Positions 2,375 through 52,363 of a stretch of 64,000 bases of DNA are shown here, piece after piece. The notes under the pieces are model-generated. The model did no database searches and was not told the DNA's origin. It saw only the letters and a list, made by a program, of their open reading frames with translations. The first letter of the stretch is position 1. Every line of letters begins with the position of its first letter. The translations under genes were made by a program, and so were the position numbers. Location of the stretch: contig JADZAE010000018.1 of NCBI GenBank assembly GCA_020852715.1, positions 1 through 64,000 of the forward strand, read 5' to 3'. This DNA comes from Deltaproteobacteria bacterium (GTDB lineage: Bacteria; Bdellovibrionota_C; UBA2361; SZUA-149; JADZAE01).

Positions 2375-2656
2375 TTAGTTAACAGCCTTAACCGCAGATT
2401 TAAATGCGGTGCCGGCACGAAATGTAGCGACATTTTGCTCAGCAATAGGCATAGTTTCCCCGGTTTTAGGATTACGGGCGAATGTTGCTTTACGACGACG
2501 CTTTTCGAAAGTTCCGAAGCCGGAAATTGTGATTTTTTCGCCAAGTGATACACAAGATGTAATCTTTTCCGTGAAGATACGTATTACACGCTCAACTTCT
2601 TTAGAGTTGATATTTGATTCCTGCGCTATCATTTCAATAAGCTCAGCTCTAGTCAT
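2375..2656 (-). CDS. HU/IHF-family DNA-binding protein
   Basis: A 93-residue histone-like protein that bends and compacts DNA as a dimer. The start M-T-R-A-E-L-I and the signature G-F-G-T-F-E-K-R-R-R-K-A followed by the R-N-P-K-T-G-E beta-arm motif are diagnostic. A strong Shine-Dalgarno (GGAG) lies upstream of the ATG. Sequence alone does not separate HU from an IHF subunit. It lies upstream of lpxD on the same strand, but a 236-nt gap without a credible gene separates them. Confidence 0.93.
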   Translation of the reverse strand: MTRAELIEMIAQESNINSKEVERVIRIFTEKITSCVSLGEKITISGFGTFEKRRRKATFARNPKTGETMPIAEQNVATFRAGTAFKSAVKAVN

Positions 2657-2855
2657 AAAAATACTCCTTAGTAATAAAAGGAATTACGCGTTTATGGCGA
2701 ATCTACTAGCGCGTGTTTTCTTCTTAAGCAAGAAAGAAAATTAAGCTTGGAATAATCTATATATGCGCAATAGCCAAATTATCTAGTTTTTAGATAGGGA
2801 GATGGCCACTGAAAGTGAGGCTGTGTTTAAAAGGTATATAGAATGCTAGGTTTAT

Positions 2856-3599
2856 TCAGCTTAGACCAATGTCCATAATTTCGATGCCATTAGCATAAGC
2901 CTTTGTCTTATAGTCAGAAACCTCTGTCAGCCGCTTAAGGATAGCGACCATGCGCTGACATTGCTCAATTACTGCTGACAATGTTTGTTGAAATTTTGGG
3001 TCAGCTGAATTTAATTGAAGCAGTAGCTGATAATTTAACATTATGGTTGTTAGCGGTTGGCCAAGTTCATGACATGCTGCTCCGGCAACCTGCATAGCGA
3101 TTATCTGCTTTTCCTTTACCTGTAGTAAATTTTGCGTTCTTCTAAGTTCATCCGTCAGGACTTTTATTCGTAGAATTGCATGAACTCGCGCTTCAAGTTC
3201 GGGCATGGCAAATGGCTTCGTTATATATTCATCGGCTCCGCAGTTTAGACCACTAACTCTATCACTTACTTCCGCCAGTGACGTAAGTAATATTACCGGA
3301 CAAAAGTTCTTGCCGGAGCGTGCTTTAATTTGAGCGCAGACCTCTATGCCGCTTAATAAAGGCATTTGCCAATCAAGTAATGTTAAATCCGGCAGAAAAT
3401 CGTTCCAACCAGCCAATGCCTCTTGGCCGTTTGAGAACAGTTTCAACTCATATCTTGGATTGGCCAAGGCAATTTCAAGAAGGGCGCGAGCATCTGGATC
3501 ATCGTCAGCTATCAATATCCGAAATGCCTTATGCGCGAGAATTTGCTCGATGTTAAAGTCTTCTGCGAATTGTTGCTCGTTGGATGTTTTATCTACCAT
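2856..3599 (-). CDS. Response-regulator receiver fused to a histidine-kinase dimerisation segment
   Basis: The first ~140 of 247 residues form a receiver domain with the acidic cluster I-A-D-D-D, the phospho-acceptor in L-L-D-W-Q-M-P, the L-L-T-S switch residue and the T-K-P-F lysine. A short coiled coil follows, then a DHp-like segment with H-E-L-G-Q-P-L-T. This resembles an H-box, so its histidine could be phosphorylated. The protein ends before any ATP-binding domain. It therefore looks like a phosphorelay intermediate or the front of a truncated hybrid kinase. No partner kinase is adjacent. The divergent neighbour at 3783 encodes a lipoprotein. Confidence 0.85.
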   Translation of the reverse strand: MVDKTSNEQQFAEDFNIEQILAHKAFRILIADDDPDARALLEIALANPRYELKLFSNGQEALAGWNDFLPDLTLLDWQMPLLSGIEVCAQIKARSGKNFCPVILLTSLAEVSDRVSGLNCGADEYITKPFAMPELEARVHAILRIKVLTDELRRTQNLLQVKEKQIIAMQVAGAACHELGQPLTTIMLNYQLLLQLNSADPKFQQTLSAVIEQCQRMVAILKRLTEVSDYKTKAYANGIEIMDIGLS

Positions 3600-3782
3600 A
3601 ACGCCCTTACTCTTTGCCTACGCCATTATATAGCCACATTTTGTAACTAACATTAGTGGGCAATTTGCGTGCCTCCAGATAACCCCTTGAAAACACGCCA
3701 GGCTTCGGCTATAGACAGTCAACCCTTAGAAAAGAAGTTACATATTTGAGTGCAAGCATTTCATAGGAAAAGGACTTTTTAA

Positions 3783-4478
3783 ATGAATAACATAAAGTCG
3801 GTTAAGACTCTGTTGCTAATTGCTGTGATTACTGTTGCCGTTTCTTGTAGTGGTGGCGGTGGCGGGGATGATGGCTCTACTACGGAACTTAAGCGGGAAA
3901 CAGATACAGCTGTGCGTTTAATTCATGCTGCGGTAGATGCTGCTCCTTTGGAGATTTATGGAGGACTAATTCAAGTTACTAAAGGTCGATATGCTCAAGA
4001 AACTTTTTTTGGTCGCGTAGAAGATGAGAACGTAACTGAGCTAGTAGTGGCCCGCGCCAATACAGCGGCTACTGATATCGTGAGGAGAATTCCGGTTAAT
4101 TTGGCAGAGGATACTGAATATACTCTTTTCGTCTACGGTAAAGTAGGGGATGATGCTTTTAGATATAATTTTATTATTGACAATATAGAACGCCCTGATA
4201 ACGGTGCTTGTATTGTGCGCCTATTTAATGGCTTACCTGATTCTGGTGATTTGACACTAGGATCGAAAGATTTTGCTCAACCCGGTGTTAGATATGGAGT
4301 GGTTTCATCTTTTAGGCATTCAGCATGTGGTCCCCAAATCTTTACAATAACTTCACCAACGGGAACTTTGGCTCGAGTTTCCATTGATCTGCCGGAGGAG
4401 AGTGAGGCGACGATTGTGCTCTCTGGTGACAAAGATTTAGGGTATGTAAAAGCCGTGACTTATTTAGATTTAGATTAG
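3783..4478 (+). CDS. DUF4397-domain lipoprotein
   Basis: A 231-residue exported protein of unknown function. The N-terminal signal ends in a lipobox (V-S-C) followed by a Gly/Asp-rich spacer, so it is probably a lipoprotein. The segment V-R-L-I-H-A-A-V-D-A-A-P-L-E-I-Y matches the start of the DUF4397 fold, and the later V-R-L-F-N-G-L-P-D repeats this opening, suggesting two related beta-sandwich halves. It stands alone between the divergent receiver gene and dnaG. Confidence 0.8.
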   Translation: MNNIKSVKTLLLIAVITVAVSCSGGGGGDDGSTTELKRETDTAVRLIHAAVDAAPLEIYGGLIQVTKGRYAQETFFGRVEDENVTELVVARANTAATDIVRRIPVNLAEDTEYTLFVYGKVGDDAFRYNFIIDNIERPDNGACIVRLFNGLPDSGDLTLGSKDFAQPGVRYGVVSSFRHSACGPQIFTITSPTGTLARVSIDLPEESEATIVLSGDKDLGYVKAVTYLDLD

Positions 4479-4595: not shown

Positions 4596-6665
4596 ATGTC
4601 CATACCGAAAGATGTAATTGAGGCAGTTCGCCGCAAAGTAAGTTTGGCCGAACTGGCTTCAGATCTACCGAAAATTAAGCGCTCGGGTCGTGGTTATACT
4701 GCCTGTTGTCCATTTCACGAAGATAGCTCACCTTCATTTTCAATTAATGACGAAGAAGGCATTTTTCATTGTTTTGGATGCGGGAAGAAGGGCAGCGTTT
4801 TCGATTATGCCATGGAGCGGCGCAATTTAACTTTTGCCGAAGCAGTTCGTTATTTAGCTGGTAAAGTGGGAGTTATTATTCCCGAACAACGACACAGTTC
4901 CGGCGAAAGTCAATTAAAACAAAAAGAAAAAGAACGACGAGGATTACTTAGAGAAATTCTCACGCACGCTGTTAATCATTATCGCCAGTTATTGCTTTCA
5001 CCCGAGGGTAAAATGGCACAGGATTATTTTTTACGGCGTGGGGTGAGTGCCGAATCGATTAATATCTTTCAGCTTGGCTATGCTCCCGCTAGTTGGGATT
5101 ATATAGCTGATGTTTTGTGGAAAACTTTTCAATCACGTTTTGATAAACAAGAAGATTTTATAGCAGAGCTGATTGCTCTGGGCTTAATTAAAATGCGGGG
5201 GAAAAGTATTGGCGAGCAGGGAGAAGTTAAGTTGCCCTCTGAAAATATTGAAGGCACAGATCAACGCAAAAATTACTATGACGTGTTTCGTCAGCGGGTG
5301 ATTTTTCCCATACTGCGCAGTGATTTCGTTCCCATTGCTGTTGGAGGTCGTATTTTAACGAACGATAAGGAACAGCCCAAATACATAAACTCACCTGAAA
5401 GTTTAATCTATTCTAAACGCTCTACGTTGTATGGTTTGGCTCAATCTCTGCCTGCTATTCGTAAGGCTCGTCATACTTACTTAGTCGAAGGTTATTTGGA
5501 TGTAATCGGGCTTCATCAAAGAGGGTTGCAGTTGAGCATCGCCAGTTGTGGAACAGCTGTTACCGAAGAACACGCGCAGCTATTAAGGCGTTTTGTTAAC
5601 CGCGTCACTGCCTTTTTTGACGGTGATGTTGCCGGAAGAAAAGCTGCCGCCCATTGTTTTTCTGTATTTTTAAATTCCGGCATTGAAGTAGATGGAGTTT
5701 TATTACCGGAAGGAGAAGATCCGGATTCTTTTTGTCTTGTCAATGACCATGATAAGTTACAAAAATATATTGAGGAGCATAGGGTCCCAATTTTAACTGT
5801 CTATCTTGACGAGCTACTGACAAATGCCGGTCTTCAGGATGGAGCAGGCTCAGCGGTTATCGGCGGTAAAGCTGCACAGCAGTTTGTACGAGAGATTGTT
5901 GTAGTTAATAATGCTGTAGAGAAAGAATATCTACTAAAAGAAGCATCTATTAAATTTGGCGTTAGTGTAGAATCTATGCTTAGCTTGCTTAAAGAAGCTG
6001 AGGAGAAGAAGAGAGAAGCGCAAAGCTATACGCACCCAATTACGGCCCACGCAGTTGTGCGAAGTGCGGTTAGAGAACAGGTTACTGATCGCAGGCAGCC
6101 GGATTGGAATAGACGCTACCATGATGCCGAACATGCGCCAAAGCCGCAATTTATTGAGGCTGAAAATAATAAGGGCATCGCTGATGATTATTGGAAGCAA
6201 ATGTTGATTTTGCTTGTGCGACAACCATCTATCGCCAAATCAGTTTTAGATACGGGCCTCGATCGGCAAGCAATACTTAATGAGCAGGGCAAGGCTGGAT
6301 TATTGACTGACCTATGCAGGGATCTTGTTGCCGGTGCATATGTTGGGCTTGAATCCAGAGAGAATGATGAGCATTCAGTCGCTTATAAGCGAATTAAGCA
6401 ACTTATCGAAAAACAGGGCTTGTCGGCTGAACCCATTTTAATAGAAGTGCAGCGCCAGGTGCGTATCGGAGCCGTGGAACCAGAGAAATTACTGGAAGAT
6501 ATTGCCCGTCAGATAAAGCGTCGCAAGATAGAAGCAGATGTTGCACAGCTAAAAAAAGAAGAGGCCGGTATTTCCAATGATGAAGAGCTACTACGTTTGG
6601 CGCAAGAGAAGTTACTAAAGCGTCGCTCTCTCGAGACGCCAAGAAAGCCTTTAAGTAAAGATTAA
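4596..6665 (+). CDS. dnaG: DNA primase
   Basis: DnaG synthesises RNA primers for replication. The 689-residue protein has the N-terminal CHC2 zinc-binding motif (C38, H41, C59, C62). The catalytic core carries the TOPRIM elements V-E-G-Y-L-D-V and F-D-G-D-V-A-G (about residues 298-345), and a helical C-terminal region for helicase binding follows. An apparent insertion around residues 205-225 precedes Y-Y-D-V-F-R-Q-R-V-I-F-P. The usual macromolecular synthesis neighbours rpsU and rpoD are absent; rpoD would normally follow. The 241 nt after the gene are T/A-rich with no gene. Confidence 0.97.
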   Translation: MSIPKDVIEAVRRKVSLAELASDLPKIKRSGRGYTACCPFHEDSSPSFSINDEEGIFHCFGCGKKGSVFDYAMERRNLTFAEAVRYLAGKVGVIIPEQRHSSGESQLKQKEKERRGLLREILTHAVNHYRQLLLSPEGKMAQDYFLRRGVSAESINIFQLGYAPASWDYIADVLWKTFQSRFDKQEDFIAELIALGLIKMRGKSIGEQGEVKLPSENIEGTDQRKNYYDVFRQRVIFPILRSDFVPIAVGGRILTNDKEQPKYINSPESLIYSKRSTLYGLAQSLPAIRKARHTYLVEGYLDVIGLHQRGLQLSIASCGTAVTEEHAQLLRRFVNRVTAFFDGDVAGRKAAAHCFSVFLNSGIEVDGVLLPEGEDPDSFCLVNDHDKLQKYIEEHRVPILTVYLDELLTNAGLQDGAGSAVIGGKAAQQFVREIVVVNNAVEKEYLLKEASIKFGVSVESMLSLLKEAEEKKREAQSYTHPITAHAVVRSAVREQVTDRRQPDWNRRYHDAEHAPKPQFIEAENNKGIADDYWKQMLILLVRQPSIAKSVLDTGLDRQAILNEQGKAGLLTDLCRDLVAGAYVGLESRENDEHSVAYKRIKQLIEKQGLSAEPILIEVQRQVRIGAVEPEKLLEDIARQIKRRKIEADVAQLKKEEAGISNDEELLRLAQEKLLKRRSLETPRKPLSKD

Positions 6666-6906
6666 CCTAAAAAAATCAGTTGAGATGATAGAGAGCCTAA
6701 AAAAATTAAAAAATCGAGCCACTTACCATAGCATTTGGAAATCGCCAACGGGTGGGTGCGTGTTTTTTATTTTTTGAGGGTTTCCCAAAGAGAGTGGGTT
6801 TTTCTAAGTTTAATAAAATGGTTGCAGCCACTTTTAAGATTAATAGCTCAATACGCAACACGAAGGTATTTAGGCAATCAATTCTAGGCGAGTCGTTCGT
6901 TGGGGC

Positions 6907-7591
6907 TTAGGAAAATAGTCCTTTTAAACGTTTGGCCTCGATTAGGTCATTTATTTCTTGAGTGGAAATTAAATGCTCAAAATCACCACCAGGAAAAAGA
7001 CGCAACCAAGAGAACACTTGGTTTTGAAAGGCAACGGGCATAACCGATGGTTCAGTATTTACCTTTCTTAGAGCCCAAACTATTACCTCTCCCATTTGAT
7101 TGGCTACATCGGCTGCTGCTTTAATTGAATGTTCGATAATTGCTCCCATTGAGCTATTATCGCTGTTGGAAACTAAACTTTTTTGGTATATCTAAGGCAT
7201 TAAACGTTACAGTTTAGGTGCGCGGATAAGAACTAAGCATCAAGTTCCAAGGATCACTATCATGCTCACCGCTCTTGCGAAAATTGTTGCGAACGATAAC
7301 AGTAGGCATGTCAATAAATTTGGTAAACAGGTATTCCACTATGGTGCCTGAATCAATTTCTGTTCCATCAAAGTTAAATACAGCAAGATCTGAGCTAATT
7401 AGTGTAAGCAGATCCAGATTGCGAATTTCGACGGCCGGTGCATCACCATGTTCCAACACTGCGGGCAAGATACAAGAAAAACTACCGTCGCTGAGACGAT
7501 TAATCGCTTCCGTCAGTAATGCGTTGCCTGCTAAATGTTTAAGACTAAATAGTTCTCTGGCAAAATATACTTTGTAGGTATCAGAGCCCAT
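6907..7591 (-). pseudogene. Nucleoside 2-deoxyribosyltransferase-like gene, broken
   Basis: The first open segment (7591-7214) begins K-V-Y-F-A-R-E-L-F and carries F-D-G-T-E-I-D-S-G-T-I-V-E-Y, the D-x-x-D-S-G-T-x-x-E signature of nucleoside 2-deoxyribosyltransferases. It stops with TAA at 7216-7214, right after S-S-Y-P-R-T. Reading through that stop gives T-V-T-F-N-A-L-D-I-P, a plausible continuation, until further stops near 7158. The second open segment (7149-6907), in another frame, contains E-H-S-I-K-A-A-A-D-V-A and resembles the family's C-terminal helix. I infer one ancestral gene of ~220 codons with a nonsense mutation and a frameshift. Alternatively, the first part alone is a short functional protein. 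Confidence 0.65.
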
Positions 7592-7887
7592 ACGTTAACC
7601 TTTTTTAGTCAGTTTAGCGTTGTGGCAGTGAAACAATCACACGACTCTACTGTTGAATCTATCTTAGATAAACGGATTTCTGTTTTTTTAACAATACTTT
7701 TTGCCAAATTAAACTGAATCTCCCTTAAAAGGAAATACTGCGCTCTGAAATTTAAGAGTAAAGCAATCAAGCTAATGAAAATATTACACCATTCAAAATC
7801 CATTAGCGATGTGGTTATCTTGTTGTGAGCCAAGGCTAGCAAGAAGATACAGTTTATTGATAATCACAATAAGCTTCTTGAGGTTAC

Positions 7888-9597
7888 TTAAGAAAGGTGT
7901 TGCTTCAACCAGTCTTGAACAAAGGAAGTGGCGGCGTGAATGGCAATAACACCTTTATCCTGAGTTCCTCGAATCTTATACTCAATTTGATCGTTTTGTA
8001 GATTTTTGGTACTAACAATTAAGCGTAGCGGAATGCCCATCAGGTCGGCTTCAGCAAATTGCACACCGGCTGACAAGTTTCGATCATCATATAGAACTTC
8101 GATGCCGGCCTGAGTAAGTGCTTCATACAATTGCTCTGCGCAGGTATGAACTAACTCGTTATCTATTTGTATGGCATTTAGCTGCACCTGCCATGGCGTG
8201 ACGCTTATTGGCCAAATAGGACCGAATTGATCGTGTGATTCTTCGATGATACTTGCCAATAACCTTTCTATGCCTATGCCGTAAGAACAGAGAAGGGGAT
8301 GTTTATCTTGGCCGGTTTCATCGGTAAATGACATTTTCAATTTCTCTGTATAAATGACACCTAGCTTAAAAATATTACCTACTTCGATACCACGGCGAAT
8401 AGAAAGTTTGCCCCCGGCGCACATCGGACATAAATCCCCCTCTCTTGGTATTGCCAGGTCAATGATTTTAGCGTCAGGGGCATCACGGTGCAGGTTGAAA
8501 TTTAAATAATGATAATCCGGTTTATTAGCACCACAAACTAAGTTGGAACTTCGTTCAATGGAATAGTCGGCCAAGAGGATACAATTTCTTAACCCCATGC
8601 CTGAAGCAAAGCCGGTAACGGCTCCAATGGATAGAATGTCTTCCTCACTGGCCGCTACAATCGAAGTGTTCAAGAATCGAGAAAGCTTATGCTCGTTTAC
8701 TTCCAAATCTCCACGGATGAGAGCTGCGACAATCTTACCCTCTGTTGTTCTATAAAACACCATTTTTGCCAGCTTGCATTCAGGAAGTTGCAAAAAGCTG
8801 GCTAAATCGGCAATTGTTTTGAGATTAGGAGTGTAAACCTCTTTTAATTCCAGCTCCGGTTCGAGTTGATGCATAACATTAGCCGTGGCTACCTCCAGAT
8901 TGGCTTTGTAATCACAACTATCGCAAACGGCAATTTTATCCTCGCCGGACTCAGATAATAACATATATTCTTGTGATACATTACCGTCCATTAATCCGCT
9001 ACCGGCGCTGATGGCAGCAATATTATCTAAGCCTACACGCTTAAAAATTCGGACGTATCCGTCGGACACTCGGTTATAATAGGAGTCCATATCGGCCACC
9101 GAAGTATGAAAGGAGTAGGCATCTTTCATCGTAAATTCCCGTAAACGGATAAGCCCGCCGCGTGAGCGGGGCTCATCGCGAAATTTTGTTTGAAACTGGT
9201 AGATCATTAATGGAAAGTCTTTATAACTGGAGACCTCGGCTTTAGCGAGATCAACGGCAGCCTCTTCGTGAGTCATGGCAAGTAACATAGAGTGGCCGGA
9301 ACGATCAGGGAAACGAAGTAACTCCGGACCAATCTCATCATAACGTCCGGTTTTTGCCCAAGAATCTTTAGGCAAAACAACGGGCAACTTTACCTCTTGC
9401 CCACCAATTGCGTTAATTTCCTCTCGAATAATATTTTGGATTTTAGCCGTGATGCGCATTGCCGGCAGCATTAGCGAATAAATACCATTTGCCACGGGCC
9501 GAATATAGCCGCCGCGCAACAAATAAATATGACTTATCAGCTGCGCCTCGGAAGGCTTCTCTTTTGTCTTTCTACCGATTAATTTCGAAACCCGCAT
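7888..9597 (-). CDS. proS: Proline--tRNA ligase
   Basis: Class II synthetase charging tRNA-Pro. At 569 residues it is the bacterial type with the editing (INS) domain between motifs 2 and 3. Visible motifs are motif 2 (F-R-D-E-P-R-S-R-G-G-L), the T-H-E-E loop and motif 3 (G-I-G-I-E-R-L), followed by the anticodon-binding domain (about 470-565). A good Shine-Dalgarno (AGAGGA) precedes the ATG. It follows aspS by about 56 nt on the same strand, so the two are probably cotranscribed. Confidence 0.97.
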   Translation of the reverse strand: MRVSKLIGRKTKEKPSEAQLISHIYLLRGGYIRPVANGIYSLMLPAMRITAKIQNIIREEINAIGGQEVKLPVVLPKDSWAKTGRYDEIGPELLRFPDRSGHSMLLAMTHEEAAVDLAKAEVSSYKDFPLMIYQFQTKFRDEPRSRGGLIRLREFTMKDAYSFHTSVADMDSYYNRVSDGYVRIFKRVGLDNIAAISAGSGLMDGNVSQEYMLLSESGEDKIAVCDSCDYKANLEVATANVMHQLEPELELKEVYTPNLKTIADLASFLQLPECKLAKMVFYRTTEGKIVAALIRGDLEVNEHKLSRFLNTSIVAASEEDILSIGAVTGFASGMGLRNCILLADYSIERSSNLVCGANKPDYHYLNFNLHRDAPDAKIIDLAIPREGDLCPMCAGGKLSIRRGIEVGNIFKLGVIYTEKLKMSFTDETGQDKHPLLCSYGIGIERLLASIIEESHDQFGPIWPISVTPWQVQLNAIQIDNELVHTCAEQLYEALTQAGIEVLYDDRNLSAGVQFAEADLMGIPLRLIVSTKNLQNDQIEYKIRGTQDKGVIAIHAATSFVQDWLKQHLS

Positions 9598-9653
9598 ATC
9601 AATCCTCTAAGGAAAGAGCTAGCTAAGTTCTCGAGCGAGACCATAGTATTCCC

Positions 9654-11447
9654 CTAGGCTTGCTTTTCTTTCTCCTTTGGCAGCTTCAATGCGATATGTA
9701 GCTCACGCAGCTGCTTTTCCGCAACAGTAGACGGTGCTCCCATTAATAAATCCTCTGCTGATTGGGCCATCGGAAAGGCAATAACCTTGCGCAAGTTGTC
9801 TTCCTGCGCCAGCATTCTCACAATGCGGTCAATGCCCGGGGCAATACCGGCGTGAGGCGGCGCACCATAACGAAATGCTCTATTCATACCGCCAAACTTT
9901 TCGTCGACGACTTCCGGCGGATAACCGGCGATGGAGAAAGCTTTATACATGATATCAGGACGATGATTTCTTACTGCGCCCGAAGATAGCTCAACGCCGT
10001 TACAAACTAAATCATATTGGTAAGCAAAAATTTCCAACGGATGTTTAGTTTCTAACGCTTCCATACCGCCCTGTGGCATAGAGAAGGGATTATGACTAAA
10101 ACAAATTTGCTGAGTTTCCGGGTCTTCTTCGAACATCGGGAAATCAACAATCCAGCAAAAATGATAGGTATTAGGCTCAACAGCGTTAAATTGCTCGCCA
10201 AGTTTGACTCTTAACTGCCCCATGGCGGGTAAAATGGTTTTCTTAGCCCCGGCCCCCATGAAGACCACAGAAAGACCGGTTATATTTAACTGGGACTTTA
10301 TGGCGTCGATCTCTCCTTCATTCATGAATTTAGCAATTGAGCCGCGAGCCTCACCATTTTCAAAGATTAGGTATGCTAAGCCTTGGCCGGATGTGGTCTT
10401 AAACCACTCTATCGTATCATCAAAGAACTTGCGTGAGGGTAAGCTCTCAATGTCCCATTTCAGTGCCGAGATAATTCCTTTTTTCTCAATCTCACGTTTA
10501 AATACCTCAAAGCCAGTGTTGGAAAATATTTCTGTTATATTAGCCAGTTTTTGCTTGATACGCAGATCGGGTTTATCTGAGCCGTAAAACATCATGGCAT
10601 CGTTAAATGCTATGCGTTCGAAAGGAGCTGAACTAAGTTTCCAGTCACTATACTTAGGAAATACCTCTGTGAATAACTGCTCGCACACTTCAAACACTTG
10701 GTCCTGCTCAACAAACGACATTTCCAAATCAAGTTGATAGAACTCTCCGGGAGAACGATCGGCCCGGGAATCTTCGTCCCGAAAGCAAGCAGCAATCTGA
10801 AAATAACGATCAAACCCTGAAACCATCAGTAGCTGTTTAAACTGTTGCGGCGCCTGTGGCAGAGCGTAAAATTTACCTGGATGCATACGCGAAGGAACCA
10901 GAAAGTCACGGGCGCCTTCAGGTGAGGAGCTAGTGAGAATAGGTGTCTGAAACTCGGTAAACCCCATGTTATACATAGATTCACGAATAGACCGAATAAT
11001 GCGCGAGCGAAGCAAAATTGTTTCGTGCAAACGCTCTTTTCTTAGGTCAAGGAAGCGGTATTTTAGCCGAATTGGCTCGGGGGCGTTGTCATCGTCGGCA
11101 ACTTGGAATGGTAAAACGTCAGCACTGGAAAGAAGTTCCCAGGATGTGGTGTGTACCTCAATTTCCCCTGTAGGTAATTTAGTATTTATTGCCTCCGGTG
11201 CTCGCCATCTTACCTCGCCGGTAATCTGAATGACAGATTCGACTCGAACCTTTTGCAATTCGTCGCTAATATTACCTGAGGCTACGACCTGAGTGATGCC
11301 GTAATTATCTCGTAAATCAATAAACAAGACGCCACCATGATCACGCTTTCTATGAATCCAACCGGCAAGATTAACAGTTTGTCCGGCTTGTTCTTTTCTT
11401 AGCTCGGCACAGGTTTGAGTTCTGTATTTGCTTTTTAGCGTGACCAT
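9654..11447 (-). CDS. aspS: Aspartate--tRNA ligase
   Basis: Class II bacterial-type aspartyl-tRNA synthetase. The N-terminal OB-fold (G-W-I-H-R-K-R-D-H-G-G) precedes the catalytic core with F-R-D-E-D-S-R-A-D-R, a GAD-type insertion (about 280-410), and the C-terminal G-I-A-P-G-I-D-R motif 3. I prefer the ATG at 11447 (597 residues), which has AGGA upstream. A TTG 30 nt further upstream would add ten residues that do not resemble the family. Whether it is discriminating or also charges tRNA-Asn cannot be told here. It precedes proS. Confidence 0.96.
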   Translation of the reverse strand: MVTLKSKYRTQTCAELRKEQAGQTVNLAGWIHRKRDHGGVLFIDLRDNYGITQVVASGNISDELQKVRVESVIQITGEVRWRAPEAINTKLPTGEIEVHTTSWELLSSADVLPFQVADDDNAPEPIRLKYRFLDLRKERLHETILLRSRIIRSIRESMYNMGFTEFQTPILTSSSPEGARDFLVPSRMHPGKFYALPQAPQQFKQLLMVSGFDRYFQIAACFRDEDSRADRSPGEFYQLDLEMSFVEQDQVFEVCEQLFTEVFPKYSDWKLSSAPFERIAFNDAMMFYGSDKPDLRIKQKLANITEIFSNTGFEVFKREIEKKGIISALKWDIESLPSRKFFDDTIEWFKTTSGQGLAYLIFENGEARGSIAKFMNEGEIDAIKSQLNITGLSVVFMGAGAKKTILPAMGQLRVKLGEQFNAVEPNTYHFCWIVDFPMFEEDPETQQICFSHNPFSMPQGGMEALETKHPLEIFAYQYDLVCNGVELSSGAVRNHRPDIMYKAFSIAGYPPEVVDEKFGGMNRAFRYGAPPHAGIAPGIDRIVRMLAQEDNLRKVIAFPMAQSAEDLLMGAPSTVAEKQLRELHIALKLPKEKEKQA

Positions 11448-13491: not shown

Positions 13492-14634
13492 TTAGACCTC
13501 ACTTAGAATGTTATTTAAGGTGGCTACGGCTGAGTCCATCTGTTCATAACTAATAATTAGCGGAGGAACAAGGCGTAATACATCGTCACTGGTATTATTA
13601 ATAATTAAGCCGGAAGCTAAAGCCAATTCATTAATTTTCGCGGCCACAGGGTTAGCTAACACGCACCCGATCATCAATCCACGACCGCGCACTTCTTTGA
13701 CCTGCGGCAGCGTAACTAACTGACTGCGAAAATAATCTCCTTTATCGTCAGCCCCTGCTACGAGTTTATTAGTCTCTAAATAATCAAGATTAGCTAAAGC
13801 GGCTCGACAAATTACAGCGCCGCCACCAAAGGTGCTGCCATGACTACCGGGAGTAAGAGATGAGGCAAAGCTGTCTTTAGCTATGCAAGCTCCAATTGGT
13901 AAGCCGTTAGCTAATCCTTTAGCAGAAGTAAAAATATCCGGTTCTACGCCATAACCCTGAAATGCCCACCATGCGCCTGTGCGTCCGATGCCCGTTTGAA
14001 CTTCATCGAAAATTAAAGCCAGATTATGCCGATCACATAATTCTCGCAGTCCATGGAGAAATGAATCAGATGCCGGAATTACGCCAAATTCTCCTAGAAT
14101 AGGCTCGACCATGATGGCAGCAGTTTGATCGTCTATCTTGGAAGCGAAATCAGTTAAGTCGTTAAATGCTGCATGTACAAAACCGCCGAGCAGTGGCGCA
14201 AAGCCCTCCCACTTTGCTGGCTGTCCGGTAGCGGCTAGAGAAGCCATCGTTCGTCCGTGAAAGCTCCCCAATGCGCATATGATCTTATATTTTTTTGGAG
14301 AGAAATGCTTTCTCACCAATTTAATAGCACACTCATTGGCCTCAGCCCCGGAATTTGCAAAAAAAACTTTACCAAAGCCACATGTTTGAACCAGCTTTTC
14401 GGCCAATGCCAGCTGCGGCTCGTTAGAAAACAAGTTGGAAACGTGAGTTAATTTTTGTGATTGATCAGCAATAGCTTGAGCAATGAAAGCATTGCCGTGA
14501 CCGGATGCGACTACGGCAATTCCAGCAAGGCAGTCAAGGTAGGGCTTACCGTTCGTATCGTATAAATAACAACCATCCCCACGAACAAAAGTAATATCGT
14601 TTCGCTTGTAGGTGTTCATTAAAAAATTTGACAT
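13492..14634 (-). CDS. argD: Acetylornithine aminotransferase
   Basis: PLP-dependent class III aminotransferase converting N-acetylglutamate semialdehyde to N-acetylornithine. Family motifs include N-S-G-A-E-A-N-E, F-H-G-R-T-M, the cofactor-binding I-F-D-E-V-Q-T-G-I-G-R-T-G and the lysine in T-S-A-K-G-L-A-N-G-L-P-I-G-A. The ATG at 14634 (380 residues) is preferred because AGGAG lies 6 nt upstream. A longer reading from 14763 would run into argB and add unrelated residues. It sits between argB (7-nt gap) and argF (1-nt gap). Confidence 0.96.
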   Translation of the reverse strand: MSNFLMNTYKRNDITFVRGDGCYLYDTNGKPYLDCLAGIAVVASGHGNAFIAQAIADQSQKLTHVSNLFSNEPQLALAEKLVQTCGFGKVFFANSGAEANECAIKLVRKHFSPKKYKIICALGSFHGRTMASLAATGQPAKWEGFAPLLGGFVHAAFNDLTDFASKIDDQTAAIMVEPILGEFGVIPASDSFLHGLRELCDRHNLALIFDEVQTGIGRTGAWWAFQGYGVEPDIFTSAKGLANGLPIGACIAKDSFASSLTPGSHGSTFGGGAVICRAALANLDYLETNKLVAGADDKGDYFRSQLVTLPQVKEVRGRGLMIGCVLANPVAAKINELALASGLIINNTSDDVLRLVPPLIISYEQMDSAVATLNNILSEV

Positions 14635-14641
14635 GTTGCTC

Positions 14642-15538
14642 CTAATCGACAAGGGTTTGTGGCCCTCGGCGCACCATAGTGCCAATCCCTTCCGCAGTGA
14701 AAATTTCAAGTAAGACTGCATGCTCAATTCGGCCATCAAGAATATGCGCATGGGGCACGCCACCGGATAAAGCTGTTAATATGCTTTCTACTTTAGGAAT
14801 CATACCGGCAGCCAATGTCCCGCCTGCTAATAACTCCCGTAGTCCTTGCTCATCAAGTTCTGAGATAAGCGAACTTTTATCTTCAAAGTTTTCATAAATT
14901 CCCTCGACATTGGTAAGTAAAATAAGTTTTTGTGCGCCAATTGCTTTGGCTAGTTCTCCGGCAGCCGTGTCGGCATTTATATTATAGTTATTGCCTTCAT
15001 TATCCATACCCAGAGACGCCACCACCGGTAAATAATTGTTATTGAGAAGATTCATAATTGGCCTTGCCGAGACAGAGCATATTTCACCAACGAAGCCTAG
15101 CGCCGGGTCCTTTGCTCGGCAGACAAATAAGCGTGCATCGACTCCGGACATGCCAACAGCGCGCTTGCCAAAAGTGTTAAGCAAGGACACTAACGTCCTA
15201 TTGATGTTACCAAGTAGGACCATTGCGGTAAGATCCAAGGTCTCGGCGTCAGTAACCCTTTGTCCGCGAACAAAGACGGCTTCCTTGTTCATGCTCTTCA
15301 TAAGCTTAGTTATTTGCGGTCCTCCACCATGGCATAGAACGACCTGTAGTCCGAGTGCGCGCAGAAGTATGATATCCTGGCAAAAACTCTTAGCAGAATT
15401 CATATCTTCGAGAATTTCGCCACCAACTTTAATCAAAACGCGTTTCCCGGAAAATTCCGTTACATAGGGAAGCATCTCGATTAATGTCTCAGTTTTCTTT
15501 TGTAAGTCGAAAATTTTATTAGCAAGTTTCTTTGTCAT
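14642..15538 (-). CDS. argB: Acetylglutamate kinase
   Basis: Phosphorylates N-acetylglutamate, the second step of arginine synthesis and a common feedback point. The 298-residue protein shows the amino-acid-kinase motifs I-K-V-G-G-E and C-H-G-G-G-P-Q-I, the substrate loop around G-M-S-G-V-D, and N-A-D-T-A-A-G-E. An N-terminal helix of about 25 residues precedes the kinase core, as in hexameric arginine-inhibited enzymes, so feedback inhibition is possible. GGAG precedes the ATG. argC lies 100 nt upstream on the same strand. Confidence 0.96.
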   Translation of the reverse strand: MTKKLANKIFDLQKKTETLIEMLPYVTEFSGKRVLIKVGGEILEDMNSAKSFCQDIILLRALGLQVVLCHGGGPQITKLMKSMNKEAVFVRGQRVTDAETLDLTAMVLLGNINRTLVSLLNTFGKRAVGMSGVDARLFVCRAKDPALGFVGEICSVSARPIMNLLNNNYLPVVASLGMDNEGNNYNINADTAAGELAKAIGAQKLILLTNVEGIYENFEDKSSLISELDEQGLRELLAGGTLAAGMIPKVESILTALSGGVPHAHILDGRIEHAVLLEIFTAEGIGTMVRRGPQTLVD

Positions 15539-15638
15539 ATTAACTCCATGCTCAATATGAATAGGATGCCTAGAGTAATGGCTAGCAATGAGCTATGCAA
15601 GTATAAAACAAAAAATTTATATAGTCATTAATTCATAG

Positions 15639-16682
15639 TTAGGGGTAAAATCCAATACTGCTGAGGCCTAAATGCTCTCCCAGGCCCGTGGCGATATTGG
15701 CATTTTGAATTGCCTGCCCCGAGGCACCTTTAACCAGGTTATCTATAGCAGAGTTTATGATCAATGTATTGCTGCGTTTATCCAAGGTACAGCCAATTAA
15801 CACCTGGTTTGAGCCACGAACTTCTTTAGTACCAAACCCATAGTCGACTACTGAAACAAAAGTTGTTTGTGCGTAAAAATTTCTCAAGCAGTCAAGGCAA
15901 TCTGCTTGAGTCGCCGTCCCTGAGGTTTGCGCTGCAGCAGAGATAAAAATTCCCCGCGACATGGGAATAAGATGAGGGACGAAGGTTAGAACTATATCCT
16001 TGCCGGTAAAGTCCCTCAGCGCTTGCTCAATCTCCGGTGTATGTTGATGGCGTGTTACCTTATAGGCACGAAAATCTTCATACACGTGACTAAAGTGCAT
16101 GGACGGACTGGGTTCGCGGCCGGCCCCGGATGTTCCGGATGCCGCGTTTACAACTAATGGAGCGCAAATGAGCCCAGCTTTTAAGAGAGGTGCCACAGCT
16201 AAAATGGTAGCCGTGGCATAGCAGCCGGGATTAGCGATGCGCTTTGAAGAAGCAATTTGCGAGTGGAACAGCTCAGGTAGTCCGTAACACCATTTGCTTA
16301 ACTCAGCAGGAGCGACATGCTCGCGATCATACCATTGCGGATAAAGCGAAGAGTCTTTCAAACGAAAATCACTGCCAATATCAATTACCAATTGCTCAGG
16401 GCGAAGACCGGGTAACACTTCTCCGGATTGACCATGAGGCAATCCACAAAAAACAACATCAGCCGCCAAAATTTCATCTTTAACCTCATCATAGGAAGAA
16501 AAGACTAAATTCTTTTTTGTGCCAAGGTGTGGATATAGATCACAAAGTTTTTTACCGGCCTGGGAATGAGCAGTTATTGTTTGTAGATCAAAATGGGGAT
16601 GTGAGTCTAAGAGACGAATAAGCTCGGCTCCGGTATAACCCGAAGCCCCGATAATTGCTGTTTTGAGCCGTGGTGATTTCAT
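15639..16682 (-). CDS. argC: N-acetyl-gamma-glutamyl-phosphate reductase
   Basis: NADPH-dependent reductase for the third arginine step. The 347-residue protein has the dinucleotide motif I-I-G-A-S-G-Y-T-G-A-E-L, the catalytic cysteine in N-P-G-C-Y-A-T and the downstream S-G-T-S-G-A-G-R segment of the type 1 enzymes. AGAGGA sits just before the ATG. It heads the argC-argB-argD-argF series. The glutamate N-acetylation step and argG/argH are not in the window. Confidence 0.96.
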   Translation of the reverse strand: MKSPRLKTAIIGASGYTGAELIRLLDSHPHFDLQTITAHSQAGKKLCDLYPHLGTKKNLVFSSYDEVKDEILAADVVFCGLPHGQSGEVLPGLRPEQLVIDIGSDFRLKDSSLYPQWYDREHVAPAELSKWCYGLPELFHSQIASSKRIANPGCYATATILAVAPLLKAGLICAPLVVNAASGTSGAGREPSPSMHFSHVYEDFRAYKVTRHQHTPEIEQALRDFTGKDIVLTFVPHLIPMSRGIFISAAAQTSGTATQADCLDCLRNFYAQTTFVSVVDYGFGTKEVRGSNQVLIGCTLDKRSNTLIINSAIDNLVKGASGQAIQNANIATGLGEHLGLSSIGFYP

Positions 16683-48337: not shown

Positions 48338-48718
48338 CTATAATGGCGTGATATCTCGTTCTAAATCAATTATGCGCACAGGCTTTGTCTTAACCTAAAA
48401 AACAGCCTTGTATGATAGCAGGCGCTGTAAGTATTCATAATTGGCGACAGCTGTCTGGACGATAATGTTATTATTGCACATAATATTGCCATTATTTATT
48501 AGGCTCTCAAGAACCTGCAAAACTGTAGCGCTATCCACTTCTGGCATCATTAAATCAAGTAATACTACCGCGTAATCCCCCTCTGTAATGTAACGATAAA
48601 TTCCGGTGCCCCCATTACCTGCAACGACGACATTAAATCCTAATTCATTCAGTATCGAAGTCAAGAGTTTCTGACTAGTAGTATCGTCTTCAATTATAAG
48701 CGCTTTGTTTTTAGCGAT
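48338..48718 (-). pseudogene. CheY-like receiver gene, start lost and one internal stop
   Basis: Reading the minus strand from the ATC codon at 48718 gives A-K-N-K-A-L-I-I-E-D-D, then V-V-L-L-D-L-M-M-P (phospho-acceptor). A TAG stop follows at 48397-48395, and then, still in frame, V-K-T-K-P-V-R-I-I-D-L-E to a TAG at 48340-48338. That is 127 codons including the final stop, exactly CheY size, with the K-P lysine preserved beyond the stop. No ATG, GTG or TTG is available before the acidic cluster, so the start appears mutated. It is a decayed response regulator just downstream of the intact che operon. Confidence 0.75.
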
Positions 48719-49476: not shown

Positions 49477-50538
49477 CTAGGCCAGATTAATCACGATTTC
49501 GAGAACAATTAGCAGAATAATCGTGATTTCGAGAATATGGGCAATGACCACATGGTTTTGGTCGTGTACTCTTTCGTAGACATCTCGAAGGGCTGCCATT
49601 TTACGCTGGATATCGTCGTCAAGCGTAGGCAAGCGAAAACGTTTGGCCGCCAAACGATAAATTTCCAATAATAAAGGGTTACCTGCGAGGTCTAAAGAAT
49701 CCGCAATCCGATCATAAGCCCAGGTGGCTTCAATGCTTAAGCTAGATAGCTGCTTTAAGCCTAAAGTATAGATGGGCCATCCCGATTTAAACCTTTCCAG
49801 AAAATTGTCTAGATTTCGATCTAAGTGAGTAATTAAAGACCTCATTTCCAATGATTGCATCAAAGCATACTCCACGACCTGTAGAATCTGCGCCGAGCGA
49901 TTGCTAGCTAAAAATCCACAATCCCAGTCGATGAGCAGAAAATCATTGACGCTTCGTGCAAATGAACCAGAACGGATCTCGTTGGTTATGTCTTCAGATG
50001 CGGCTTCTTCGTCAATCCAAAGCAACTTGGATATATCAGCCGAATATGATGTAAAGAGCGAATCAACGGTTAATTCCTCCGACTTTTGAGCGTAGAAGAT
50101 AGTCCATTCCTCCGTGATATTATTATTAATTGGGCGTTGTATGAGGTCAGCAAACGAGTCTCTGAATCTGTCAAAAAGACCAAGTGCATTGTTGAGAGCA
50201 AGCGATTGAATAAGAGGAATTATACGAATAGTTTCCAACGCATTCAATGTGTGATCGAAGGAGCAATTAAAATAGAGAGAAATTGCTCCGAACTCCCAAA
50301 CACGCATGCGACAGGAGATTAGCCTCCCGTCAGGAAATTGAATATTATGCAAATTCTTCAATTGAAGCTGCAGCGGGGTAGGTTTACAGGCTATATAATC
50401 ACTGTTTTGCTCAACATGACAATCCATGTCAGAAAATAAGCCTGGTAACCGAACAGCGAGCTTATCTAAATCGACCCCCAATCCGATCTTTTCAACTACA
50501 AAAAGGCCGACACCATCAACCAACGGCTGTGCGCTCAT
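49477..50538 (-). CDS. C-terminally membrane-anchored protein, RMD1/DUF155-like layout
   Basis: A 353-residue protein. The mostly soluble body is followed by a single C-terminal hydrophobic segment (about 330-352, L-E-I-T-I-I-L-L-I-V-L-E-I-V). The order of elements is a beta-rich N-terminal part, then W-E-F-G-A-I-S-L-Y-F, a long helical region and a tail anchor next to L-E. This resembles the RMD1/DUF155 (YagE) family, but I recognise it by layout rather than by firm motifs. It lies downstream of the decayed kinase gene on the same strand. AAGGAAGG precedes the ATG. Confidence 0.6.
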   Translation of the reverse strand: MSAQPLVDGVGLFVVEKIGLGVDLDKLAVRLPGLFSDMDCHVEQNSDYIACKPTPLQLQLKNLHNIQFPDGRLISCRMRVWEFGAISLYFNCSFDHTLNALETIRIIPLIQSLALNNALGLFDRFRDSFADLIQRPINNNITEEWTIFYAQKSEELTVDSLFTSYSADISKLLWIDEEAASEDITNEIRSGSFARSVNDFLLIDWDCGFLASNRSAQILQVVEYALMQSLEMRSLITHLDRNLDNFLERFKSGWPIYTLGLKQLSSLSIEATWAYDRIADSLDLAGNPLLLEIYRLAAKRFRLPTLDDDIQRKMAALRDVYERVHDQNHVVIAHILEITIILLIVLEIVINLA

Positions 50539-50665: not shown

Positions 50666-52363
50666 CTATTGTGTAAAATCCCTACACAAGCGATCGAGAC
50701 CGAGAACTAATGCCAGGCGACCATCTCCCAATAGTGCGCTTCCGATGAAAAGCTCTTGTTTAAAATCGAGCAAATCAATCTTTTTTAAAACTTTTTGCTG
50801 CACTCCTATTACATCATCAACCTGTAATGTATAATAGTGATGGGCTGAGGTTACCGATACAAATAATTGTGTCTGATTAAACAATACGTCTTGCGCAAGA
50901 GCAAAAGCGTTAGCGATAGGAATGATCGGCATAATCAGGCATTGGCGTTCCAGAAAAAAGGCCTTTCCGGCGACTGACTGGATATGTTCTTTTGTGTAAT
51001 TAAGAGTTTCTCGCACTTGAAATAGTGTCAGCACAAAACAATGATTATTTACTTAAACAACAAAACCATCCACAATTTGCGTAGAAACACTTTTGCTTAA
51101 CGTCAGGGTGACACATGATTCCTGGCCTGAAATACTACCTATGGCAGTAGTCCCTCCGGCTTTCTCAATTGAGCGTTTAACGACATCCATTCCTACGCCT
51201 CGACCGGATACGTCTGTCACTTCTTTCGCCGTTGAAAGCTCCGGTAAAAAGATAAGCTGAGTAAGCTCCTCGTTTGTAAAGTTAAAATCGGGACGTAAAA
51301 CACCTTGCTCGACTCCTTTAGCTTTAAGGGCTTGCTAATCTAAGCCACGCTCATCATCTTCGATGGTAATAATAAGATGTGTACCATTCTCAATAGCGGT
51401 GATTTTTATCAGGCCAAAGGCATATTTATTTGCATGCATCCTGACCGTCTTATCCTCGATTCCATGGTCCACAGAGCTTCTTACGATGCGTGTTAATGGA
51501 GCATCTAATAGCTCAATGATGCTTTTACCAACCTCGATTGATTCTCCTAATAATATAAGCTTAACCTCTTTATCTTTTGTCGAGGCAATATCGGTTTTAG
51601 CGGTAATAGGCTTTTCTTGATGAGCATAATCTTTAAGGCCTCAAACAATGGAAGAAATGTGCGTGACGCCGTAGCGAATCCAGTCGATAGCCTTAGGCAT
51701 TACCTCTATAATGAAATTTAATTTCTCTTGCTCATCTTTGTTTTCAGCAAATTTAAAATAATCAGTAAGATCAGCTCAGAATTGTGAAATTGTCTGGATG
51801 TTCTCCGAAATAAAACTTGCGTGATTATTTATCTCGTGGGCAATTCCTGCGAACATAACCCCCAATGTAGAAAGGCGATCAGAAGGAACTAATTGACGAG
51901 CTCGCTCTTCGGCGAGAGACTCCATCTATGTTGCATACTCCTTAATAGGCATGTTTACTTCATCAATTACCAAATTTTCGTATATTAAGCGGATGGCTAC
52001 ATTAATGCGGCTTTTTAATGCATTTTTGTCATATGGTTTCGAAAGAAAGTCGTGTGCACCATTATCCAATGCGGAAACGATGTCCTCTTTTTCTGATTTA
52101 GCGGTAATAATAACTGTGTAAACAAATCTTATACTTTCGCGTTTAGATAATTCGCGGCAAACATCGACACCGCTAAGCTGTGGCATGTTCCAATCAACTA
52201 ATGCTAATCGAGGGCCAGTTTATTTTGAAAGAATATCCAGAGCCGCTTGACCATCGGTACATAAAACTGTTTGCTAGCCCTAGCCTTCAAGGTAATTAGA
52301 TAGAACGTGACGGGACGTTGCCTCATCGTCGGCAATTAGAATTTGGAAATTTGCATCTGACAT
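50666..52363 (-). pseudogene. Receiver-histidine kinase-CheW gene with eight in-frame stops
   Basis: From ATG 52363 one frame of 566 codons runs to 50666 with no net frameshift. Its domains are a receiver (I-A-D-D-E, L-V-D-W-N-M-P, L-S-K-P-Y), a DHp with A-G-I-A-H-E-I-N-N, a CheA-type HATPase (S-S-V-D-H-G-I-E, G-R-G-V-G-M-D-V-V) and a CheW-like tail. Internal stops lie at codons 28 (TAG), 30 (TAG), 48 (TAA), 146 (TAG), 196 (TGA), 241 (TGA), 343 (TAG) and 437 (TAA). All could arise from C-to-T or G-to-A changes or simple substitutions. Short translated pieces may persist (52186-51926; 51034-50666). Very probably non-functional. Confidence 0.85.

Follow-up and report, generated by a model that had tools for sequence, protein, structure and literature searches.

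The locus

The window (the whole 64,000-nucleotide stretch of DNA that was analysed) carries on its minus strand a long frame broken by stop codons and on its plus strand an intact set of chemotaxis genes. The features that concern us are these:

50666..52363, minus strand: whole pseudogene, an in-frame fusion remnant of 565 codons with 8 internal stops (translation and frameshift-aware alignment)
51608..52363, minus strand: residues 1–252, the receiver and DHp half of a receiver-histidine kinase (HK), with stops at codons 28, 30, 48, 146, 196 and 241; 43% identity to the N-terminal part of relatives' 391–427 aa HKs
51593..51607, minus strand: fusion junction, residues 253–257, where HK-like sequence ends and CheA-like sequence starts; ~1.8–2.1 kb missing (alignment to relatives)
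50666..51592, minus strand: residues 258–565, the P4 (ATPase) and P5 (CheW-like) half of a CheA, with stops at codons 343 and 437 and with substitutions at the N-box Asn and G1-box Gly; 43% identity to the CheA of L004/L025
42715..48242, plus strand: intact chemotaxis set comprising CheA (765 aa), CheW, CheY, CheB, CheR and a CheX-like protein

Translation of the minus-strand frame from 52363 to 50666 gives 565 codons and a terminal TAG, with eight in-frame stops: TAG at codons 28, 30, 146 and 343, TAA at 48 and 437 and TGA at 196 and 241. This reproduces, in every codon position and stop type, the eight-stop frame described in an earlier sequence-only reading of the window. The best partial protein match has an E value of 3e-66, placing the frame far beyond chance. 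Receiver (residues 8–120), HATPase_c (289–423) and CheW (433–561) domains are called by Pfam in the remnant itself, as that reading had proposed; its DHp domain finds backing in the HisKA call, which is absent from the remnant but is made in the aligned relatives. When the DNA was aligned to several HK and several CheA references using a protein-to-DNA aligner that allows frameshifts, all eight stops were recovered and no frameshift was found in the remnant, with the same outcome under a cheaper frameshift penalty. The absence of frameshifts reported earlier therefore stands.

The genes encoding release factors RF1 and RF2 are intact in this genome, and no stop anticodon was found in the tRNAs read by ARAGORN (all but two of the 33 Rfam tRNA matches, individually read). 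Stops in 46 neighbouring genes comprise 20 TAA, 15 TAG and 11 TGA, confirming that the neighbours use the same stops normally. With three stop types in the frame, both release factors intact and no suppressor tRNA found, codon reassignment is rejected, as it had been from the stop types.

The intact 765 aa CheA encoded nearby in the window shares only ~32% identity with the remnant. The intact chemotaxis set is the functional counterpart of the remnant and not its source.

Two genes joined in frame

The frame had been taken for one sensor kinase gene. It consists instead of halves of two adjacent signalling genes, fused in frame: in a search of 58 genomes, the first ~250 and the last ~308 residues match two different proteins. 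Residues 8–249 match the N-terminal part of receiver-HisKA-HATPase_c proteins of 391–427 aa, and residues 258–565 the P4–P5 region of CheA proteins, in both cases at no more than 43% identity. Like the receiver-HisKA-HATPase kinases (e.g. those of L025 and L028), the first half has a receiver and a DHp domain with an HEINN motif, with 36–43% identity over residues ~8–250 to the five nearest; it differs from them in its six stops and in that the HK's own ATPase domain is gone, with that of CheA in its place. The second half resembles CheA-type kinases in P4–P5 (HATPase_c PF02518, CheW PF01584), aligning without frameshift to the six nearest relatives at 36–43% identity, but it is preceded by neither an Hpt (P1) nor a dimerisation (P3) domain, the N-box Asn and G1-box Gly have been replaced and there are two stops. 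Whereas a functional CheA has P1 (Hpt), P3, P4 and P5 with intact N and G boxes, the remnant lacks P1 and P3 and carries N296S and G338E.

The gene order in two relatives, L025 and L028, accounts for what lies between the halves. In both, HK, a single-receiver protein of 136–144 aa and CheA are encoded in that order on one strand by separate adjacent genes. By position comparison, the window is shorter than L025 by ~1.79 kb and than L028 by ~2.14 kb, what is absent being the ATPase domain of the HK, the receiver gene, and CheA's Hpt, P2 linker and P3 dimerisation parts. The claim that the frame is interrupted only by substitutions thus fails, since the relatives reveal a deletion of ~1.8–2.1 kb inside it; "no indel" is true for small indels only, and a seemingly unbroken frame can conceal a large deletion. 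The missing N-terminal part of CheA is absent elsewhere in this genome, where the only matches to it are the intact CheA and a broken CheA on contig C82 (28%). One scan of genome contigs for close relatives of the locus returned only distant CheA or receiver matches, and no paper directly relevant to a fused or decayed cheA was found among the titles and abstracts listed.

Loss of constraint and the number of stops

Thirty-five alignment columns are invariant across 28 CheAs, and six of these are altered in the remnant (D279G, H292R, N296S, G338E, G375E and P446T). When intact CheAs were left out in turn, most showed 0–1 changes of 35 (~0.5 typical, maximum 5). N296 and G338 lie in the ATP-binding N and G1 boxes. 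Against a set of close CheAs, 16 of 73 columns are altered in the remnant versus 2–4 in the four nearest controls, and in the HK half 8 of 52 invariant columns are altered, two of them by stops. By this comparison the frame is dead, with protein-level constraint lost.

Neutral substitution was then simulated on the frame. Missense change of 15–20% corresponds to ~0.08–0.12 substitutions per site, which gives ~5–8 stops, the probability of eight or more being 0.10–0.57 across settings. The stop count matches the missense level, so that a single neutral process fits both, and the substitution-driven decay suggested by the sequence-only reading is borne out by conserved residues altered at the rate predicted from the stop count. 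The locus also combines the disabling changes and intact homologues by which bacterial pseudogenes are recognised: eight stops and ~2 kb missing, with relatives intact. What looked like a puzzling eight-stop kinase resolves to a two-gene fusion remnant whose stop count agrees with its loss of conserved residues.

The codon-usage signal of the remnant is still high, at 0.172; intact genes score 0.136, and at 10% divergence a value of 0.105 would be expected. The measure is too noisy to serve as a clock, with intact and broken genes overlapping.

The shortage of frameshifts

In its disabling changes (eight nonsense, no small frameshifts, one large deletion) the remnant departs from the mix of nonsense and frameshift usual in pseudogenes, a mix that is typical and not strictly defining. 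To put this in context we compared other broken genes of the same genome, sampled by family searches and stretches, counting changes consistent across references; the counts are small and hand-assembled. One is a decaying second che operon (CheA, CheR, CheD, CheY, CheX, CheB) at L033 (G000:C82:66000-76028), positions 5267–9905. Its CheA has ~5 frameshifts and 1–3 stops, CheX and CheB have one frameshift each, CheD has one stop and CheR a 132-bp in-frame loss. Like the remnant, the C82 CheA is non-functional, and with 6 of 30 invariant residues lost it has a similar rate of invariant loss, making the two loci similar in age by that measure; unlike it, the remnant has nonsense changes without frameshifts.

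Elsewhere in the genome, L065 (G000:C64:14000-33000) has a response regulator interrupted by one stop and one frameshift, along with a sensor-kinase region that is divided between frames (3654–4308 and 14155–16121), and L066 (G000:C47:1-6000) has a receiver gene with two TAA stops and no frameshift (1539–1919). A methionyl-tRNA synthetase copy at L067 (G000:C55:1-5000), 2525–4174, has two TAG stops, both at Trp positions, and no frameshift or gap over 548 residues. It adjoins a broken ABC transporter and is 58% identical to an intact copy on C23, where the same synthetase family has two matches, both full-length and intact.

Pooled, the other pseudogenes have ~7 stops and 8 frameshifts, the remnant 8 and 0 (Fisher p ~0.02), and the comparison with the C82 operon alone gives p ~0.002; both values are post hoc, the remnant having been selected because its frame reads through. 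Bacterial mutation-accumulation lines show 0.10–0.36 indels per substitution in the table of one study (PMC4978911), and at these ratios ~170 substitutions would be accompanied by ~17 or more indels in the remnant. The ratio implied by C82 is much lower, at ~0.02, giving ~3 indels expected in the 1.7 kb remnant and a probability of none of ~0.03. The sequence-only reading had noted that pseudogenes of this age usually gain indels as well. The remnant has no frameshifts against eight in the others, but in a locus so preselected their absence is mildly improbable, not extraordinary.

Origin of the remnant

The stops are very probably explained by the loss of a redundant operon, leaving a two-gene deletion fusion that has since decayed. 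A second chemotaxis-type operon, encoding a receiver-histidine kinase, a receiver protein and CheA, would have become dispensable and disappeared from this lineage; a ~2-kb deletion, running from the ATPase domain of the HK through the receiver gene to the middle of cheA, would have joined the remaining halves in frame; and the remnant, free of protein-level selection, would then have accumulated ~0.1 substitutions per site, which brought it eight stops and cost it catalytic residues. That other signalling genes of this genome are also broken supports the loss of the operon. The absence of frameshifts in 1.7 kb and the high codon-usage signal count against this explanation. Both the loss by deletion in this lineage and the present silence of the remnant, from which probably nothing is now expressed, are inferred. 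All told, the locus is a pseudogene in ordinary decay, if slightly unusual in how it arose and in its pattern.

A variant of the same history, possible if on balance doubtful, is that the deletion first gave a working receiver-DHp-P4-P5 kinase that was kept for a while before substitutions killed it. The junction lies within a few codons of a domain boundary on both sides (DHp/ATPase in the HK, P3/P4 in CheA), so that the fused product would have had its domains in a coherent order and a once-expressed fusion kinase can be envisaged. A random in-frame deletion would rarely be so placed (0.0002–0.002 by a rough, post hoc estimate), and the frame is still unbroken, its codon usage still strong. 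Chance or structure-guided breakpoints are alternatives, however, and the ATPase has lost its catalytic Asn and Gly. Furthermore, when a junction-spanning fragment was compared with 46 genomes of the phylum, the window's own included and none of the others from the same family, the fused form was found in none of the other 45; in that search the CheA matches begin near residues 252–258, which is also where most of the HK matches stop. That a new kinase architecture worked for a time and then died accumulating substitutions and not indels, whether through continued translation of the frame for some time or through an unusual rarity of indels at the locus, we consider unlikely.

Errors of assembly or consensus, as the source of the stops or the junction, are highly improbable. 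The genome is a fragmented draft of 84 contigs and spurious pseudogenes arising from assembly errors are common (PMC11017572), both of which count for such a reading, but errors do not produce a 1.7-kb tract with ~0.1 substitutions per site and intact genes to either side of it, and the missing part of cheA is nowhere else in the genome.

More improbable still is local C-to-T or G-to-A hypermutation, or retention of the sequence as a recombination donor. It had been claimed that seven or eight of the stops were explainable by such changes. Column alignment shows Trp in the relatives at codons 28 and 196 and Gln at codon 146, and these three clearly fit; the column at codon 30 is Phe or Tyr in nearly all relatives, and those at codons 48, 241, 343 and 437 are variable, leaving the claim standing for three stops. 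The argument carries little weight in any case, since for every stop there is some codon that a change of this kind would turn into it. At the CheA-invariant columns the changes are mixed in type, with Asp-Gly, His-Arg and Asn-Ser of the A-to-G type, two Gly-Glu of the G-to-A type and a Pro-Thr transversion; without a C-to-T bias, hypermutation is not indicated. As for a donor role, a donor cassette would need a recipient in its own genome, an intact gene closely similar to it, and the best other match to the remnant there has ~29–40% protein identity, too little for recombination. Least credible of all is readthrough of the stops, by recoding or suppression, in a gene that still functions: the unbroken frame and strong codon signal would suit it, but it would have to accommodate all three stop types with intact RF1 and RF2, no stop-reading tRNA found and neighbours that terminate normally, and the loss of catalytic residues runs at the rate expected from the stops, so that neither a decoding route nor constraint on the sense codons is seen.

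Two further minus-strand features of the window deserve mention. A receiver-domain remnant with one TAG (48362–48700) adjoins the intact che cluster, and just downstream of the pseudogene a gene at 49477–50538 encodes a protein of 353 aa that has a hydrophobic C-terminus and matches no Pfam family.
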